This document shows positions 294 through 38,808 of a stretch of 38,808 bases of DNA, one piece after another. Each line of letters opens with the position of its first letter. Position 1 is the first letter of the stretch. This DNA comes from a virus: positions 1 to 38,808 of the IMG/VR virus record IMGVR_UViG_3300023235_000055. One strand, written 5' to 3'. Both the position numbers and the translations under genes were made by a program. The notes below the pieces were generated by a model. It saw only the letters and a list, made by a program, of their open reading frames with translations, was not told the DNA's origin and did no database searches.

Positions 294-2063
294 TTAGATT
301 GAAATACCAGAGTTTGATATCTGAAATGTTCCGTTAAATCTCAACACATCATTAATAGATATAACTGTGTTCGGAAGCGTTGTCCCACCGTTAGAATAGA
401 ATGTAAAAATAGTATTTCCGGTTTGAGTTCTCGTTGAAAAAATATATGAGAGTCCGCCGATTGATGTCACGCGATCCCCTGCTAAATTCAAACTTCCAAC
501 ATTGATCGCCTTTGGAAATGGTACTGTCCACTCCATAGCGTAAGCGCCAACACCCGTCACTGAACAAGTTCCCTTAAATCCAATTACACACAAACCGCTT
601 CTTTTCACCCAATAAGTATATATGTTTTCTGTAAATTGTGGTTCTGTTCCACCATTAATTGTAATGTATGTATTTGTTGAACATCCCAACTGACCTTTTG
701 GGTATATAAATGGTGTTGATTCGTGATATTTTTCGATTCCGTCTGCATTAGTAAGAGTCTGAACAGTCCAGTCATCAGCAGTTGTTAGCTTTTGCATACG
801 AAAAGAACCAAGACAGATACAAGGATTTGCGTCGTAGACAGTTTCAACTATATTTTCCAAAGAAAAAAAACTAAGCATAGAGTCCGCAACTGCATTATCC
901 GGTGCGCCAATGCTCGCAGCTACTGGACTTATGTCTGCATGGGGAACTCGGCTGATCATAAATGCAATATCGTCTTCGTCATCATTTGATACCGCATACA
1001 GAAAGAATGGCATATCTTCCGCCCAGGCTACACCTGTAGTCACGCCAAACAAATTATTAACGATCTCACTAGCTCCAACGTCGTCAATGAAGCTCTGGTC
1101 GGATGTTACAGGTATTGTAACGAGCTGTCCCGGTGTCCCCTTTGACTGTAACGTCACGTTCCCAACATTCGTCGCACTAAGAGCTGTTCCACCTGCGCTA
1201 GTGACCTTGAATACTCCAGTTCCACCGTCATAAGCTATACCAAGGTTTTTTGCCCCAGGCTTAGGATTAGCAGATACGAAACCAGTGGCTCCAACTGAGA
1301 AATCATTCAGATTATAGTGAGCAAGACCACTTTTAGTTCCATCGGCTGCTGATACAGCGGATGCGTACTGAGCTTCTATCTCATAAGAGTTAATTGCCCT
1401 TGTGTGAGTCTCTATAGGAACGCTATGAGCTGTTACAGCGTTTCCTGTGATCGTAACGTTTCCGGTTACAGGATCTGGTACAACTGGATTAACCCCTGGA
1501 GCAGTAATAGAGTCTACTGTAACTGAATCAATCGCCAACCCTCCACCAAGCAACTGAACATATCCGTCCGCATCAACAGTGAACATGGTGTCATCGAAAG
1601 ATGCGATTCCAGCATCGTTCTTATCACTAGGAGCTCCGGTAATTGCTGCGCCAACCTGGACTTGGACATCAATTTTATTTGTACCTGCAACTGTTTCCAC
1701 AGGTATTCCTGAAGGATTGGCAGCATTAGCCACTACTAAGCCATCAATATCAACGTTACCCGATCCATCTGGGCTTACTTGTACATTTACCTGATCACGA
1801 AGGAAGTTAATTCCTGTACCACCTACTCCAGTATCAAACTGTTTCCAAATAGCATCACCATTTAAAAACTCAGATAGATACCATAGATCACCTTCTGTAC
1901 CTGTTGGGGGGTTGTCACCAACCAACCAGATAGTCATCAAATTGTGATTCTTATCGAGTATCGTTGGTTCCTTGCAATGTTTCACAGTAGGAACAATATT
2001 AGCACTTGGACCGGTGTATCGGATTACGTTTTTATAAGGAACTCCCACTGTGTTTCGTGACAT
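294..2063 (-). CDS. Long tail fibre copy 1 (589 aa)
   Basis: This is a beta-rich, Gly/Ala/Thr/Val-rich virion protein with repeating pseudo-periodic segments of the kind NDAGLxSFxxxxFxVxxxGxVxL, typical of trimeric phage fibres. The start ATG at 2063 has a good Shine-Dalgarno (AAGGGAAGTAA). Residues 1 to about 460 align without large gaps to the second fibre (37146-38808 plus 1-253). The last 120 residues or so are unrelated in sequence, as expected for a variable receptor-binding tip. It lies in the receptor-binding block at the end of the late operon. No catalytic motif or autoproteolytic chaperone domain is visible. Fibre assignment is by composition and context; the receptor is unknown. 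Confidence 0.85.
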   Translation of the reverse strand: MSRNTVGVPYKNVIRYTGPSANIVPTVKHCKEPTILDKNHNLMTIWLVGDNPPTGTEGDLWYLSEFLNGDAIWKQFDTGVGGTGINFLRDQVNVQVSPDGSGNVDIDGLVVANAANPSGIPVETVAGTNKIDVQVQVGAAITGAPSDKNDAGIASFDDTMFTVDADGYVQLLGGGLAIDSVTVDSITAPGVNPVVPDPVTGNVTITGNAVTAHSVPIETHTRAINSYEIEAQYASAVSAADGTKSGLAHYNLNDFSVGATGFVSANPKPGAKNLGIAYDGGTGVFKVTSAGGTALSATNVGNVTLQSKGTPGQLVTIPVTSDQSFIDDVGASEIVNNLFGVTTGVAWAEDMPFFLYAVSNDDEDDIAFMISRVPHADISPVAASIGAPDNAVADSMLSFFSLENIVETVYDANPCICLGSFRMQKLTTADDWTVQTLTNADGIEKYHESTPFIYPKGQLGCSTNTYITINGGTEPQFTENIYTYWVKRSGLCVIGFKGTCSVTGVGAYAMEWTVPFPKAINVGSLNLAGDRVTSIGGLSYIFSTRTQTGNTIFTFYSNGGTTLPNTVISINDVLRFNGTFQISNSGISI

Positions 2064-6941: not shown

Positions 6942-6973
6942 AAAAAAGAGTGAGGATCCGTGGAAACCCTCAC
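6942..6973 (-). terminator. Intrinsic terminator after the 184-aa gene
   Basis: Read on the minus strand, GTGAGG (6973-6968), a 12-base loop and CCTCAC (6955-6950) are followed by TC and six T residues (6947-6942). It starts nine bases after the stop codon of the 184-aa gene at 6982, so it splits the late region into an upstream morphogenesis block and a downstream receptor-binding block. Confidence 0.8.
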
Positions 6974-6981
6974 CCAGTTTA

Positions 6982-7536
6982 TTAAAGTCCAGACGCTACG
7001 ATTCTGTAAGCGATTCGAACAGATACTGTTGAATCTCCAGCAGCAATATTTGCGTTTGTATTATCTAGTACTAGAGCCTGATTTACGATTCCAGTTGCTG
7101 CAACGATATTATCTTTTTTTGGAATAGCGTTAGTTAGAGTATCAGCAGCTTGATCAATCCAGCCTGTTGTTTCAACAGCCTCTGAAACAATCGCACCAGA
7201 GCCGTTTGTATACCGAACAGCAAAGTTATCCGCTGCTTCTGTGTACTGTGTGGTTGCGTAGTTGAGAATTAGTTGTGCGCTAATGAACTCAACGAATAAA
7301 CCAGCGCCAGGAGCGGCTACAATTGTTTTAGGTGTAGTTGCTAGTGCTAGAAGTTCTGCGGATGTGATTTCTACAGTGTCGATTCGGATAAGCTCGCCAA
7401 CAAGTTTAGGTGTCATTGCTAGCTCATTAGAGGTAGCTGAAACAGCTTCTCCAGCCTTTGCGAATCTTACTTGTCCTGACAGGTCTGTGTTTGCTTTTCG
7501 ACTTGTATATGCTATGGAATTTGCGTACCGTGACAT
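6982..7536 (-). CDS. Virion protein with fibre-like N-terminus (184 aa)
   Basis: The protein begins MSRYANSIAYTSRKANTDLSG and is Ala/Thr/Val-rich with alternating strand patterns (ELLALATTPKTIVAAPGAG, VSVRIAYRIVASGL at the end), typical of a compact beta virion protein. Its MSR...Y start resembles the long fibres (MSRNTVGVPY). It has its own terminator downstream and is separated from the ejection genes by the rightward module at 7645-7994, so it may have its own promoter in 7537-7640. A decoration or tail-tip role is inferred. Confidence 0.75.
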   Translation of the reverse strand: MSRYANSIAYTSRKANTDLSGQVRFAKAGEAVSATSNELAMTPKLVGELIRIDTVEITSAELLALATTPKTIVAAPGAGLFVEFISAQLILNYATTQYTEAADNFAVRYTNGSGAIVSEAVETTGWIDQAADTLTNAIPKKDNIVAATGIVNQALVLDNTNANIAAGDSTVSVRIAYRIVASGL

Positions 7537-7609
7537 GGTATTCTCTTTGTTTGAATAAAGGATTAAAAACTTTATTCTATCATCGAGACTTTCAAAAATA
7601 AACGTAATC

Positions 7610-7645
7610 TTGAGTTGTATGGGTTATTGTGACATAATTATGTCA
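7610..7645 (+). promoter_or_regulatory. Promoter with embedded palindromic operator
   Basis: TTGAGT (7610-7615) and CATAAT (7633-7638) are 17 bases apart. The -10 lies inside the perfect 16-bp palindrome TGACATAATTATGTCA (7630-7645), whose last base is the A of the start codon of the ribbon-helix-helix gene. Predicted transcription start is within a base or two of that ATG and no Shine-Dalgarno is present, so the message may be leaderless. Autorepression by the encoded protein is the natural hypothesis. Confidence 0.65.
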
Positions 7646-7827
7646 TGACAAAGCAACCTAATGAGTTTCAAAGAACAACCGTATACTTGCCTAAAGAACT
7701 ATATAGGCAAGCTAAGATAAGAGCTGCGGAAGCAGGAACCTCTATATCTCAATTTATGCGTGTTGCTCTCAAGGAAGAGATCTTGCTTTGCGATAAGGAA
7801 ATGGATAAACCACAAGGACGTGACTAA
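7645..7827 (+). CDS. Ribbon-helix-helix (Arc/CopG-like) repressor (60 aa)
   Basis: The short chain has the RHH layout: a DNA-binding strand (residues 9-15, RTTVYLP), helix A (KELYRQAKIRAAEAG), a TSIS turn and helix B (QFMRVALKEEIL). RHH dimers bind short palindromes through paired strands. A perfect palindrome overlaps this gene's own start codon, so autoregulation is likely. It is the only gene besides its partner that opposes the late operon, and it overlaps the next ORF by one base (TAATG). It may be expressed early and control the membrane protein behind it. Confidence 0.8.
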   Translation: MTKQPNEFQRTTVYLPKELYRQAKIRAAEAGTSISQFMRVALKEEILLCDKEMDKPQGRD

Positions 7828-7994
7828 TGAATGAAACAAATGAAGTTGAAAACTACAATACTATAAAATGTGTATCATTGACTTTGGCTGCTTTAGCTGC
7901 TTTTGCCGGTTTCCCACAAATATCCATAATTTTTATTCTTGGATTTTGTTTTTTCTGTGAGTCATTCTGGAATGTTCTTTTCCTTAAGTTATAA
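7827..7994 (+). CDS. Small membrane protein coupled to the RHH gene (55 aa)
   Basis: The ATG at 7827 overlaps the TAA of the RHH gene (TAATG), so it is translated by coupling. A polar N-terminus (MNETNEVENYNTIKC) precedes a long hydrophobic stretch from about residue 16 to 44 with a central Gly-Phe-Pro, enough for one long or two short membrane helices, then an aromatic-rich C-terminus (ESFWNVLFLKL). The gene ends six bases inside the 3' end of the convergent ejection-protein gene. Size and topology fit a small holin-like or superinfection-exclusion protein, but no family was recognised. Confidence 0.65.
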   Translation: MNETNEVENYNTIKCVSLTLAALAAFAGFPQISIIFILGFCFFCESFWNVLFLKL

Positions 7995-10900
7995 TACCGA
8001 CAAAGCAGCAGGTGCAACAGCTTCTCTTGATGCTTCCTTTGCTTTTGCTCCAACTTTTTTCAATTCTTTAGGTATGTTTTTAGAACTACTCGGCTTCAAT
8101 ACTTCTTTTTCTAATAATGTTAAAAATTCTTTATCAGAAAGCAAGTTAGCTACAGCTCTCATCCCCCCAATAGATGTTAATACTTTCGATAGCATCCATG
8201 CATTACCAGTTAATACCGCTGTACCTGCTGTCACTAATGCTGCTGTATCGGCTGCTACCGATCCCGATTGGCTAGCGTTGTAAAATTTATTTGATGTTTC
8301 AGCTAATCGACCGGAAACCTTTTGTATTTTAAGCATTTTATTCAGGCTGTCCTGACCTAATATTTCTTTTAAAATTGCTCTTTCAGATTGTTTAGCACCT
8401 AGCTTTGAGAATGTACCAAGCTTAACTTGCTGTGTAATGCTATCGCCCATTTTATCGGCAATCATTTGTTCTAGCTTATATCTCATTAGATCGTCAAAGA
8501 GCTGTTTCCCTTTTTCTGATCCAGATAGAGCACCTTTAATTTCTCTTATACCGCTGACAGTATCTAATTTTGCTAATACTTGAGCGTCTGTTTTTGAACC
8601 CAATAAGTTTGCAAACTTTCTAGACTTATGTGCAGGTGATACAGTTGCTTTAATTTTTTTATCAGGTATTCTTGCCTGTTGTTGTCCAATAGGTATTTCT
8701 CTACTTCCAACTTCAGGTCTTCGTGCTCTAGGTAAAGGTCTATCCTGACTTGCTCTCAATTCTTCAATATATGTATCAACTGAATTATTGAACTCTGGAC
8801 CTAAAGCAGCGTTAAGGTCAGCAACTTGTCTACCATTAATAGTAGGTCGGCTCAATACATCAGAAGTAAGATCTCGTTTAATCTCTCTGATTAAGTTCTG
8901 GCCGTTTTCCGATTGATTCATTACTCTTTCTAAAGCTCTGAGTTTATCAGGATTTTGGATGTATCCATTATAGATAGAGTTGTAATTGAAATTTCTTCTT
9001 TCAAACAGTTTTCTTACGTTTTTATCTTCAAATATTTCTTTAAACTGACTGTAATCTTCGCTTAGCTGTCTATATGTGGATTCCGCAACAGGACTTTCAT
9101 TCCTTAGTGTTCTATTTATTGCTTCATCAAGATCAGACACTAATGATTTTAAAGAGTCTTTTATATCTTTAGTTCCAAGCTCCCAATTTGGTATGGCTGC
9201 AAGAGTGCGCTTACTCTTTATTAGAGTATCAACCGAAACGGCCCTTTCACCTCTCGTACCGATATTGTTTCCAATTGCCTCGATATTCATTCCTAATTGG
9301 TTTTCTAGTGTAGCCACATCCGCAGGAAATACCTCTCTAACAAATGATATTCTGTTTTGAAGTGTTCCAATCTCATCATTAAGCAAAACGTTATGTATTC
9401 TAGGACTAGTTTCAAGAACGTCTTGAGTAATGTTTATTGGAGTTACTTCATCACGCAATCTTTGTGCTACTCTTACAACCTTTGCTTCAGCACTGCTTTC
9501 ACCTAATAGTAATGAACCTTCATGACTTGCGACAAATTCATTAACCCTTGGTGCAAGTTCAGGTTGAGGGGCTGAAACTTGTCCATACTCTTCTGTAAAC
9601 GCTGTGTACCGTTGATTAAACTGTTCTGTTATCGGTCGTTTAATAATGGCCCCTTCTTCTTTTAAAAGTCTTCCACCTGTTTCAGAGGAAACTGTTTCAG
9701 TGGGCGAAACATCATTTAACAGATTTTCAACTTCAGGCGTTGGGTTTATATCAACATCAATTCTATCTCGAAGTGGATAGTTCTCACCTTCTTTAGGTAT
9801 CTTCTTTGTTATACTTCTATCTACGAATCTTTGGTTTTTTGGAACTTCTGGAACTTGTTTCGAGGTCGAAAGATTCTGTTCTGCAAGCGTGCTTGAAATA
9901 TCATCTACAGCTTGACGGCTAGTTTCGAATTTAATTTCTCCTATTTCGTCAGCAATCGAAGTGTAAGCTTCTTTAATCTGTGAGGACATATCTTTTCTAA
10001 AGTTATCAAGTGATTCCCCAACTATTCCTGATTGTGCTGCTTTCGTTTGAATTGTCTTAACAAGATTGGAGCCTGTTAATGTACCTGCATCTAAAGGTAT
10101 ACCAAGCTCTTTTGCGTCTTTTGACAGCTCGCTTATTAACTCTTTATCAGCACCTTTTGAAGTCTTTGCTACTAATTTAGCCACGGATTCTTTCGGATTT
10201 TTTACAGTCTTGGCTACAGCTTTACCAGTCTTGGACGCAGCTTGTCCAACTTTTGGTATTTGACCGCCAACTAAATCTCCAACTATTGCTGCTGTCATTG
10301 TGCCTATTGGACCATAACCACCTTGTTCCGCTGCTTCTATAGCCCCTGCTGCGGTAGCTGCTCTTAATGCTTTTGTACCTGGTATTAAATTTTTAGATAT
10401 TTCTTTAAGAGATGTAGTTCCTTGAATTAAATTTTTACCTTCTTGAAAGCCTTTTACAGGATCTTTTAAGAATCCAAGCCATTGGGCGGCAGTTTCAAGA
10501 TAACCTTCAGGATGTGTATCTATTCCTGTTACAGATTGAAAGATTCCTGGAACGCTTAAATCAGCTGTTTTTACGAAAGGCGCGGTTTGGCGAATATCTC
10601 TAAATTGATTTTCAAAGCTTTCTAAAAGTTCTTTGTCTTTTTCATCTGCTATACCAAGTGAGTCCAACCATCTCAAATGTTGAATATCTTCTGCTAACTG
10701 ATGTCTGTATTCTGCACTCTGTGCTTGTGGTTGGGCAAGTGATGCTGTCCCAAACTCCCACGGTAAAACCTTCGATTGTATTGACGCAAGTCCAGTTTGC
10801 ATTGGAAGTCGTGCAGCTTTTTCAAGTAAACCACGTTCTTTCTTCTCTGGAACATCAGTATCTAAATACTCTTGTATTTGGTCCTCTGAGTAATTATTTT

Positions 10901-11129
10901 CTCTGGCAAAGGCAATTTTATCTTTATAAAATGGATGATCTTCTAAAAATTCAACTTTTGTAGATATGTCATCAGGACCTAAAAAAGAATCAGAATTGTA
11001 CTTTTGAAGTATGTTTTCAGGTTGAGTTGAATTTATTTTTTCTTGTTCTGAAGCAAAATATTCATCTATTTCTTCTTGAGAATACCCAGCATCTAGGGCA
11101 AATTGAACTTTATTAGTATCCGGCGTCAC
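7989..11129 (-). CDS. Large internal virion (DNA ejection) protein (1046 aa)
   Basis: This is the longest gene. Near the N-terminus two short repeats resemble each other (FALDAGYSQEEIDEYF and FARENNYSEDQIQEYL); such GYSxxEI repeats occur in podophage internal proteins. An Ala/Gly-rich amphipathic stretch near residue 255-300 and another near 990-1020 could contact membrane. The rest is helical and charged. An ATG at 11138 directly abuts AGGAG, which leaves no spacing, so the GTG at 11129, nine bases beyond that site, is preferred. No transglycosylase Glu-Ser motif was seen. It probably leaves the capsid with the DNA, as P22 gp16/gp20 do. Confidence 0.75.
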   Translation of the reverse strand: MTPDTNKVQFALDAGYSQEEIDEYFASEQEKINSTQPENILQKYNSDSFLGPDDISTKVEFLEDHPFYKDKIAFARENNYSEDQIQEYLDTDVPEKKERGLLEKAARLPMQTGLASIQSKVLPWEFGTASLAQPQAQSAEYRHQLAEDIQHLRWLDSLGIADEKDKELLESFENQFRDIRQTAPFVKTADLSVPGIFQSVTGIDTHPEGYLETAAQWLGFLKDPVKGFQEGKNLIQGTTSLKEISKNLIPGTKALRAATAAGAIEAAEQGGYGPIGTMTAAIVGDLVGGQIPKVGQAASKTGKAVAKTVKNPKESVAKLVAKTSKGADKELISELSKDAKELGIPLDAGTLTGSNLVKTIQTKAAQSGIVGESLDNFRKDMSSQIKEAYTSIADEIGEIKFETSRQAVDDISSTLAEQNLSTSKQVPEVPKNQRFVDRSITKKIPKEGENYPLRDRIDVDINPTPEVENLLNDVSPTETVSSETGGRLLKEEGAIIKRPITEQFNQRYTAFTEEYGQVSAPQPELAPRVNEFVASHEGSLLLGESSAEAKVVRVAQRLRDEVTPINITQDVLETSPRIHNVLLNDEIGTLQNRISFVREVFPADVATLENQLGMNIEAIGNNIGTRGERAVSVDTLIKSKRTLAAIPNWELGTKDIKDSLKSLVSDLDEAINRTLRNESPVAESTYRQLSEDYSQFKEIFEDKNVRKLFERRNFNYNSIYNGYIQNPDKLRALERVMNQSENGQNLIREIKRDLTSDVLSRPTINGRQVADLNAALGPEFNNSVDTYIEELRASQDRPLPRARRPEVGSREIPIGQQQARIPDKKIKATVSPAHKSRKFANLLGSKTDAQVLAKLDTVSGIREIKGALSGSEKGKQLFDDLMRYKLEQMIADKMGDSITQQVKLGTFSKLGAKQSERAILKEILGQDSLNKMLKIQKVSGRLAETSNKFYNASQSGSVAADTAALVTAGTAVLTGNAWMLSKVLTSIGGMRAVANLLSDKEFLTLLEKEVLKPSSSKNIPKELKKVGAKAKEASREAVAPAALSVL

Positions 11130-11886
11130 GTAATGCATCTCCTAATGGTGGAAGTTTTTTTCTTGAAGATGTCTGAGCATTATTTTCTTGAATAGATCTA
11201 TTTATTATGTCTTCCATTCCTTCTAAAATACCGTCTCTTGTAGCATCGGTTAAGGTTGGATCTGTTAGATCCTTAGCAAACTCGTCAAATTCTTTTTGAT
11301 TTCTAATATTCATGCTAGAAACAAACGTAATTAATGACTTTGCAATTTGTGAATATTTCGCTCTGTCTTTTCTTGTTTCAGGTCCAAGATTTCCGGTAAA
11401 TGAAAAACCTAAATTACCTTTCTTTCCAATTTTTCGCATTTCATCAATAGAACTTAGAGCACCTTCAAACTTTTGATTTTTATCAGCTATCTCTAAAGAC
11501 CTTTTCTCTTGATCTTTACCAGCCTGAAAAGTTCTTTCTTCTTCTTTCTCTTCTTGCTTAATGTCTTGTTTACTCTTCAGTAAATCTACTCTTCCCTGCT
11601 GCTTTCTAGTCTCCAGATTAGACTGATCCTGTAACTTAGTTTGTCTTGAAGACTCATCAGAAATTCGCTTCTGTCGATTCTGAAGAATGTCCAAAGCTCC
11701 CTTCTGCCGAGCTGGAGATACACGAGTGAGGATTTGATTAATCGCAGAGTCTAAGTCGCCAGGTTGCCCTGTCTGTGCAGCGTTAGAGAGGATCTGATCA
11801 ATGGCGCTAAGATCTGTTTGACGCTCTTGGACATTTCCAATGTTAGTGCTAAACGATCTACCAAGTTCAAATGGTGATGGTGTCAT
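11113..11886 (-). CDS. Candidate ejection/internal virion protein (257 aa)
   Basis: This is a Gln/Lys/Glu-rich, mostly helical protein with a strongly charged middle (residues 70-135, including QDIKQEEKEEERTFQAGKDQ) that should be coiled coil. It begins MTPSPFELGRSFSTNIG after a GGGGG ribosome-binding site, overlaps the stop of the 205-aa gene by four bases and overlaps the next gene's start. Three consecutive helical genes after the tail nozzle is the usual place for podophage ejection proteins, which is the basis for the call. Confidence 0.7.
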   Translation of the reverse strand: MTPSPFELGRSFSTNIGNVQERQTDLSAIDQILSNAAQTGQPGDLDSAINQILTRVSPARQKGALDILQNRQKRISDESSRQTKLQDQSNLETRKQQGRVDLLKSKQDIKQEEKEEERTFQAGKDQEKRSLEIADKNQKFEGALSSIDEMRKIGKKGNLGFSFTGNLGPETRKDRAKYSQIAKSLITFVSSMNIRNQKEFDEFAKDLTDPTLTDATRDGILEGMEDIINRSIQENNAQTSSRKKLPPLGDALRDAGY

Positions 11887-37145: not shown

Positions 37146-38808
37146 CTATGATAATCCAACACTTGTTGAAAAATACCCACCAAACACATAACCATTTGCA
37201 AAACTATTATTAATCAGAAGTGCTGATCCACCATCAATATAAAATCCAGACAGAGCACTTGAACCCGAGTTATTCGTGCATAATACACAGTGTTTTGTGG
37301 ATGCTGTTGAAAGATAAAAATTACTGAAATTATAACCAAAAGATCCTGACGCAAAAGGTAGCGCAATTGTAATTCCTGCCGCTGCACCTGAGGGCGTATT
37401 ATTTACTACTCCCGTCCATGCTAATGACATCATTCCTGATTTTGATAGTGTATATAACATCCCATCATTTGAATAAGTTGGCCGTGTGCCACTAGCTGGA
37501 TGGTATGAATTTGTTGTTGATCCAAAAGTTCCTCTTAGAACTATAAAAACAGTCTCTTCGTGGTAATTACCAATTCCATCTTTATTTGTTAGCGTTTGCA
37601 CAGTCCAGTCATCTGATGCGGACATCTGCATTCGAAAAGCACCTACACACATGCATGGATTTTCGTCGTATAAAGTCTCATCGATGTTTTCTAGTGAAAA
37701 GAATGCTCCTTGCGTATCAGCCACAGCGTCATCTGGAGCACCTATACTACCAACGACTGGAGATAGTTTAGCATGAGGAACTCGGCTTATCATGAAAGCA
37801 ATAGTATCTTCATCGTCGTTTGATACCGCATACAGGAAAAAAGGGACATCTGATGCATAAGCAACAGCTGTAGTAAGACCAAATAAGTTGTTAATTATCT
37901 CACTAGCACCGACATCGTCAATAAATGTCTGGTCAGCTGTAACTGGGATTGTGACTAGATGTCCTGGTGTAGCTTTAGATTGAAGTGTAATATTACCTGG
38001 ATTGGAAACACTGAGAGTTGCACTTGATCCTTGAACCGTAAAGACTCCTGTGCCTCCATTATACGCAATACCGATATTTTGAGCTTCTTGAGCAACCGGA
38101 GCGGATGCTAGAGAAACAAATCCATTTGCTGAAACATCAAAATCTGTGCTTTTGAATGATGCTAGTCCAGCGTCGTACGGGTCCGCAGCAGATGCAACAG
38201 CGGCTGCAAGCTGTACATCGACATGTAATTGATTTACTGCTCTTGAGTGTGTCGCTACTGGAGCATTTGCGTTCGTAGCATTCGTTACGGTGTTTCCAAA
38301 AACAGATACTTGACCTGTACCACTTGGAAGAACTGGATCAACTCCTGGTCCTGTAGCAAAATCGACATCAATCTGATCTACCGCAATACCACCGCCATTC
38401 AAGCTCACATAACCATGCTCAGTAACTGTAAACATTGCGTCGTTAAATGAACTTAGACCAGCATCGTTCTTATCAGCTGGGGCGCCTGTTATTGCTGCGC
38501 CTACCTGAACCTGAACGTCGATCTTATTGGTACCTACAACTGTTTCAACAGGAATAGCGCTAGGATTAGCAGCGTTAGCAACGGTAACGCCGTCAATATC
38601 AATGTTACCTGATCCATCTGGGCCAACTTGCGCATTTACTTGATCTCTTAAAAAGTCTACGCCTGGACCACCAGAACCCACGTCAAACTGCCTCCAAATT
38701 GCATCACCTGCCTCAAACTCTGACAGGTACCACAGATCACCTTCAGTCCCTGTCGTTGGATTCTCAGCAATAATCCAAAAAGTCATCAAATGGTGATTCT
38801 TATCCAGT
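37146..38808 (-). CDS. Long tail fibre copy 2, main part (continues at 253)
   Basis: This is the body and C-terminus of the second long fibre. It has the same shaft plan as the copy at 294-2063, including GTNKIDVQVQVGAAITGAP, VTIPVTADQTFIDDVGASEI and FFLYAVSNDDEDTIAFMISR. The last 120 residues or so (from SYHPASGTRPTYSNDG on) are unrelated to that copy. The first standard start codon inside this piece (TTG, 38789) is internal: the gene really begins at 253 through the contig overlap. The full length is 588 aa. Divergent tips suggest two receptor specificities. Confidence 0.88.
   Translation of the reverse strand, partial: LDKNHHLMTFWIIAENPTTGTEGDLWYLSEFEAGDAIWRQFDVGSGGPGVDFLRDQVNAQVGPDGSGNIDIDGVTVANAANPSAIPVETVVGTNKIDVQVQVGAAITGAPADKNDAGLSSFNDAMFTVTEHGYVSLNGGGIAVDQIDVDFATGPGVDPVLPSGTGQVSVFGNTVTNATNANAPVATHSRAVNQLHVDVQLAAAVASAADPYDAGLASFKSTDFDVSANGFVSLASAPVAQEAQNIGIAYNGGTGVFTVQGSSATLSVSNPGNITLQSKATPGHLVTIPVTADQTFIDDVGASEIINNLFGLTTAVAYASDVPFFLYAVSNDDEDTIAFMISRVPHAKLSPVVGSIGAPDDAVADTQGAFFSLENIDETLYDENPCMCVGAFRMQMSASDDWTVQTLTNKDGIGNYHEETVFIVLRGTFGSTTNSYHPASGTRPTYSNDGMLYTLSKSGMMSLAWTGVVNNTPSGAAAGITIALPFASGSFGYNFSNFYLSTASTKHCVLCTNNSGSSALSGFYIDGGSALLINNSFANGYVFGGYFSTSVGLS
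38660..38808. repeat. Terminal overlap, right copy
   Basis: Matches bases 1-149 with two differences. One (38679) is synonymous in the fibre frame; the other (38792) changes codon 41 from Asn to His. See the left copy for interpretation. Confidence 0.9.

Follow-up and report, generated by a model that had tools for sequence, protein, structure and literature searches.

The plus-strand gene pair that lies against the late genes in the bacteriophage contig analyzed here (IMG/VR record IMGVR_UViG_3300023235_000055, positions 1–38,808; hereafter the window) is a real, non-random unit, and is better viewed as a family-wide regulatory slot combined with a variable accessory gene than as a unique module. 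As the best explanation, to which we give a probability of roughly one half, we propose that an autoregulated ribbon-helix-helix (RHH) repressor gates a variable accessory cassette, and that the membrane peptide encoded by this cassette probably excludes superinfecting kin at the stage of DNA ejection. The regulatory part of this model, as judged from comparisons of sequence, is very probably correct; that the 55-aa protein of the window acts in exclusion at the ejection step under the control of the RHH repressor is an argument by analogy, to which we assign slightly less than an even chance.

The window codes for a portal of the P22 type (2e-46, Pfam) along with Erf-like and YqaJ recombination genes. 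Its late genes occupy 24 kb of the minus strand, which carries every other plausible gene from 294 to 24690. The sole gap of more than 200 bp within this block (7537–7988) is where two plus-strand open reading frames (ORFs) are found back to back. On one side they are bounded by a short minus-strand tail/fibre gene (6982–7536) with a conserved N-terminus of the MSRY/MPKFARP type, which diverges from the RHH gene across an intergenic region reaching to the operator (7537–7629). On the other side is a minus-strand gene for a 1049-aa protein (7989–11138), which has no family match in Pfam or PHROG and is presumed from its position to encode a DNA-ejection protein.

The RHH gene and its predicted operator

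The first ORF (7645–7827, plus strand) codes for a 60-aa protein that belongs to the RHH (Arc/CopG-like) transcription factors by both sequence profile and predicted fold: it matches the Pfam RHH_1 model at 24.5 bits (cut-off 20.5); its PHROG match is an 'Arc-like repressor'; and its AlphaFold model displays a two-helix core (pLDDT 89.7), for which the best Foldseek matches in the PDB are RHH proteins, namely MazE/VapB antitoxins, Arc and CopG (probabilities 0.96–1.0, the weak E-values reflecting the shortness of the chain). A search of IMG/VR with this protein recovered two kin, G001 and G002, in both of which the gene is likewise placed and oriented, whereas tblastn gave no match in named phages; one genome match, from a Nitrospirota MAG (L005), was dropped, being a tblastn match only, in a stretch with neither an RHH ORF nor phage genes. 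The protein is 76–80% identical to its counterparts in G001 and G002, as against 80–83% for the capsid and 61–66% for the portal, which places it among the proteins best conserved between the window and these, its two closest relatives. Codon changes are concentrated at third positions (dN 0.09–0.17; dS 1.8 or saturated). Of the flanking genes, that for the 1049-aa protein shows no similarity to G001 or G002, and the tail gene is similar only at its N-terminus.

Relatives were collected by means of a capsid protein search, which yielded 80, and a search with the conserved N-terminus of the tail gene, which yielded 38 loci. Each of the 37 loci fetched by the tail gene alone has an RHH gene in the slot, on the opposite strand, as do all of those examined overall (44/44), mostly at a distance of 60–130 bp from the start of the tail gene. 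These genes were detected by an iterated profile search of all plus ORFs of at least 30 aa: the three-sequence profile alone provided 29 matches in round one, and the most distant members (L150 and L167) rest on iteration combined with position. Matches of the final iterated HMM within the ejection genes of L121 and L122 were discarded as antisense. By this comparative evidence, the RHH gene is a fixed gene of the family. The original prediction had taken the whole unit for a self-contained, moron-like cargo; the sporadic distribution that this implies is seen for the genes downstream of the RHH gene, and the description does not hold for the RHH gene itself. Moreover, the RHH gene persists in G001, L121, L132 and L169, where a peptide would have no room; hence, the RHH protein must do more than guard the peptide, although the window contains a single operator.

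Upstream of the gene lies a sigma-70-type promoter, TTGAGT-17-CATAAT (7610–7638), with its −35 box at 7610–7615, its −10 box at 7633–7638 and a TG at 7630–7631 that makes the latter an extended −10; the 17-bp spacer recurs in G001, G002, L157, L163, L166, L168, L136 and L133. As first described, the −10 box sits within a perfect 16-bp palindrome, TGACATAATTATGTCA (7630–7645), which is the longest in the window (local shuffle p 0.008) and which we predict to be the RHH operator. Since the −10 box ends 6 nt before the ATG of the RHH gene, its mRNA is predicted to be leaderless, and there is indeed no Shine-Dalgarno sequence at 7645. The start codon had also been placed inside the palindrome: this is true of its A (7645), with the rest falling outside, and the ATG that is fully enclosed (7640–7642) is out of frame. 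The palindrome is identical in G002, the only other viral contig in which it occurs together with the TG; with one site only in the window and one only in G002, there is no sign of an operator regulon in either.

Across the 43 upstream regions, TAATTA-centred perfect palindromes of at least 14 bp were found in 7 loci, whereas dinucleotide shuffles lead one to expect 0.04: TGACATAATTATGTCA in the window and G002, TTCCATAATTATGGAA in L143, GCCATAATTATGGC in L155, TTGAATAATTATTCAA in L146, TATATAATTATATA in L132 and TACGTAATTACGTA in L169. The TAATTA core of the dyad is constant and both arms change together, such that they differ between relatives yet stay complementary (TGACA/TGTCA, TTCCA/TGGAA, GCCA/TGGC, TTGAA/TTCAA, TATA/TATA and TACG/CGTA). 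Covariation of this sort would be expected if repressor and operator diverged together, and is strong evidence, of a comparative kind, that the dyad is an operator; the autonomous regulation originally envisaged draws its support from this dyad over the −10 box and start. Many relatives have no perfect palindrome upstream of the RHH gene. Promoters scoring at least 9 and situated 5–8 nt from the start codon are present in 10 of the 43 loci, against 0.9 expected from shuffles; the leaderless design characterizes the subgroup of the window, and other members possess Shine-Dalgarno sequences. At the strand positions that we take to contact DNA (aligned to Arc Q9, N11 and R13), the residues are R-T-Y in the window, T-T-Q in L146 and R-N-K in L169, a sample too small for a test. 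With their covarying arms, these operators could serve directly for testing how specificity shifts among RHH repressors.

A universal and strongly conserved RHH gene, followed by genes that vary or are missing and held at a nearly fixed distance from the tail gene, might alternatively serve chiefly to control the divergent tail gene or late transcription, with the downstream ORFs being incidental hotspot insertions. A terminator-like hairpin just 3' of the tail gene (6948–6975, minus strand) suggests a separate unit; taken with an AT-rich hairpin in the leader of that gene (7542–7588), it raises the possibility that the tail gene is transcribed on its own. However, the intergenic region has no promoter-like site for the tail gene, and the single operator overlaps the promoter of the RHH gene itself, about 95 bp from the start of the tail gene. 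We consider this account unlikely.

The small hydrophobic protein at the ejection-gene stop

The second ORF (7827–7994, plus strand) begins at a TAATG, with a Shine-Dalgarno-like AAGGA (7814–7818) 8 nt upstream, and codes for a hydrophobic 55-aa protein for which a single-sequence fold predicts, at modest confidence (pLDDT 73.5), two helices (4–26 and 34–54). At its 3' end, 6 bp are shared with the stop of the 1049-aa gene on the minus strand. The coupled start, the orientation against the late genes and the contact with the ejection-gene stop all agree with the initial description. The protein has no homologue in IMG/VR, and the 601-bp region has no blastn match in phage records. Nevertheless, in 17 of the 29 testable loci a small hydrophobic ORF terminates at the stop of the ejection gene, against 0.7 expected (the formal p-value of 2e-20 is too optimistic because the loci are related). 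Many of these ORFs have a clear Shine-Dalgarno sequence, several of them strong. The lengths of the products span 19–130 aa in the relatives, many being peptides of 19–35 aa, a size at which ordinary gene finding may miss an ORF. To judge from these comparisons, the 55-aa sequence is not conserved, and what is conserved is the position and the hydrophobic character. The prediction had been staked on conservation of the 55-aa frame wherever the RHH gene is kept; it fails at the level of sequence, and stands for a small membrane protein in this position. The 55-aa protein of the window is the local occupant of the ejection-stop position, and the peptide, for which G001, L121, L132 and L169 leave no space, is an accessory.

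Two recurrent types of peptide could be distinguished. The first, of 21–26 aa, ends in WTD, ITD, IND or similar (L145, L154, L158 and L161, with an internal copy in L155/L163), and in these four loci is paired with ejection proteins ending in RKHPNEDWSFL or similar. The second, of 30–35 aa, has an FxSP motif and is paired with ejection proteins ending in KALxIILxIL or similar (L110, L142 and L164). There are exceptions: L132 has a RKHPNEDWSFL-like end and no peptide, and L155 and L163 have the first type of peptide with another end. The type of peptide thus tends to follow the C-terminus of the ejection protein, as far as these loci indicate; the linkage of overlapping gene ends would suffice as an alternative cause of the pairing. 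In L154, L161 and L145, for example, the peptide and ejection genes converge with overlapping stops, and the two proteins tend to have a D at or close to the C-terminus.

Several of these features are also reminiscent of toxin–antitoxin systems, in which case the RHH protein would be an autorepressing antitoxin or repressor and the peptide a membrane-depolarizing toxin for addiction or abortive infection. The nearest PDB folds of the RHH protein are antitoxins of the MazE/VapB type; the operon is short and translationally coupled; and many of the peptides, at 19–31 aa and strongly hydrophobic, recall the tiny type I toxins, which depolarize membranes. Yet, the RHH proteins stop shortly past helix 2, leaving little by way of a toxin-binding tail, and the genes directly behind them vary widely, including TerL and HNH endonucleases, or, as in the four loci noted above, leave the RHH gene without any peptide. 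With no PADLOC match either, the locus does not fall among the type II toxin–antitoxin systems, and we regard a toxic role as improbable, to much the same degree as the control of the tail gene.

A function in lysis, with the small membrane protein being a holin, pinholin or single-gene lysis peptide timed by the RHH protein, would suit small hydrophobic proteins in a window where no holin or endolysin was recognized among the genes tested, and in a group where the 33 records have no PF00959 lysozyme (the only lysozyme family searched across relatives). However, the peptide gene is transcribed counter to the late genes and several relatives lack it, although lysis is essential, making this function quite improbable. 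Least probable of all is that the RHH gene alone is real and the 55-aa ORF a product of chance: it has no homologue, its fixed frame is open in 1.5% of shuffled gaps and about 1.5–3.5% of all shuffled gaps yield an open frame this long, but the positional conservation of hydrophobic ORFs in relatives, the TAATG coupling and the AAGGA all speak against it.

The P22 immI region and a model for exclusion

In the P22 record (NC_002371), the genes follow the order 16, sieA, orf59a, mnt, arc-ant, tailspike, of which sieA and mnt run counter to the late genes. Like the unit in the window, the mnt-orf59a-sieA leg of immI is placed between the last ejection gene and a tail gene, with the RHH repressor gene nearest the tail side and the membrane protein gene nearest the ejection gene. 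The two loci therefore coincide in position, strand and gene order, with the 'ejection' label in the window resting on position. Contrary to the earlier statement that no described system has this layout, the P22 immI region has it; a literature search on the combination of an RHH protein with a small membrane protein found nothing relevant. There are also clear differences: P22 has a divergent arc-ant antirepressor operon, whereas the window has no arc/ant pair, and no antirepressor ORF fits in 7537–7644, the only stretch between the RHH and tail genes; P22 has separate mnt and sieA promoters, in contrast to the one coupled operon with a predicted leaderless start; its membrane protein is of 162–164 aa as opposed to 55 aa; and its intervening orf59a codes for a hydrophilic product.

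SieA resembles the 55-aa protein in being a membrane protein encoded beside an ejection gene, diverse in sequence and carried by only some relatives. Those sieA genes that have been examined in P22-like prophages map between genes 16 and 9, the gene is carried by just 22 of 66 P22-like phages, and the mutations that escape SieA affect the C-terminal regions of gp16 and gp20 (PMC10883804). The SieA family is typified by a length of about 160 aa, three transmembrane segments and the motif FxRYPxEAxxFNK; in contrast, the window protein has about one third of that length, at most two helices and no such motif. By analogy, then, the locus would work like the mnt-sieA leg of P22, without being a member of the SieA family and without the arc-ant half of immI. 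Likewise, the RHH protein shares with Arc, Mnt and CopG the fold, the size and a dyad-symmetric operator (here predicted) over its own or an adjacent promoter, but is only ~16–29% identical to RHH structures in fold alignments, and no known family was assigned to its TAATTA-centred operator set. Lambda cI provides a precedent for a leaderless repressor mRNA, being transcribed as such from PRM: there, as predicted here, the message starts at the AUG, although the fold and the locus are different.

Based on sequence, the group shares little that is detectable with P22 apart from the portal and Erf families. The presence of the mnt-sieA arrangement in so distant a group of uncultured podoviruses suggests that the slot itself is selected.

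We advance the following mechanism. First, the RHH protein would repress its own operon by binding the dyad at the −10 box and start codon of its gene, a step that is strongly supported; in the subgroup of the window, the operon mRNA is predicted to start at the AUG. Second, the operon would hold exchangeable genes, of which the one adjoining the ejection gene usually codes for a small hydrophobic peptide, here of 55 aa, as supported by the survey of relatives. Third, the peptide would be produced ahead of late transcription or during a carrier state, and late transcription running through the region the opposite way would set sense and antisense transcription against each other. Finally, if SieA is a guide, the peptide would reside in the inner membrane and prevent the ejection conduit of superinfecting kin from assembling or functioning. 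Superinfection exclusion, one of the roles first suggested, remains the leading guess, given that sieA of P22 holds the same slot in the same orientation.

Evidence for a lysogen that would profit from exclusion is scarce, because a tyrosine integrase was detected in neither the window nor 31 of the 33 group records searched (the exceptions being G010 and G039); exclusion can pay during lytic growth too. HTH_3 regulators are present in 21 of the 33. A bolder proposal, which we hold to be possible but doubtful, is that the 19–55-aa peptides are exclusion microproteins of a novel class, each suited to the C-terminus of the neighboring ejection protein, and at once that the RHH repressors form a natural series of diverging repressor–operator pairs, with a constant TAATTA core and covarying arms, which insulate the cassette of each phage from those of its kin.

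Other genes of the cassettes

Downstream of the RHH gene, the cassettes are variable, with HNH-type endonucleases, a DNA methylase and large terminases among the products (named from reading the sequences). In L149, L152, L135 and L139, a large-terminase-like gene immediately follows the RHH gene on the same strand; that of the window is in the opposite-strand late block. A recurrent protein of 57–88 aa, with an N-terminal membrane segment, a coiled coil and an end resembling KDFHGRLCxIEER, was observed in the RHH cassettes of L155, L163, L158, L164, L146, L141, L153, L156 and L143; one member that was scanned had no convincing match in PHROGs or PADLOC. In L134, the RHH gene is followed by genes for several proteins that each have one membrane anchor, at the C-terminus, and by a gene whose product looks F-box-like; these may hint at an intracellular or amoeba-associated host. 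Lastly, the fibre-like genes at opposite ends of the window (294–2063 and 37146–38789) share GTEGDLWYLSEF near their N-termini, suggesting that they are paralogues.
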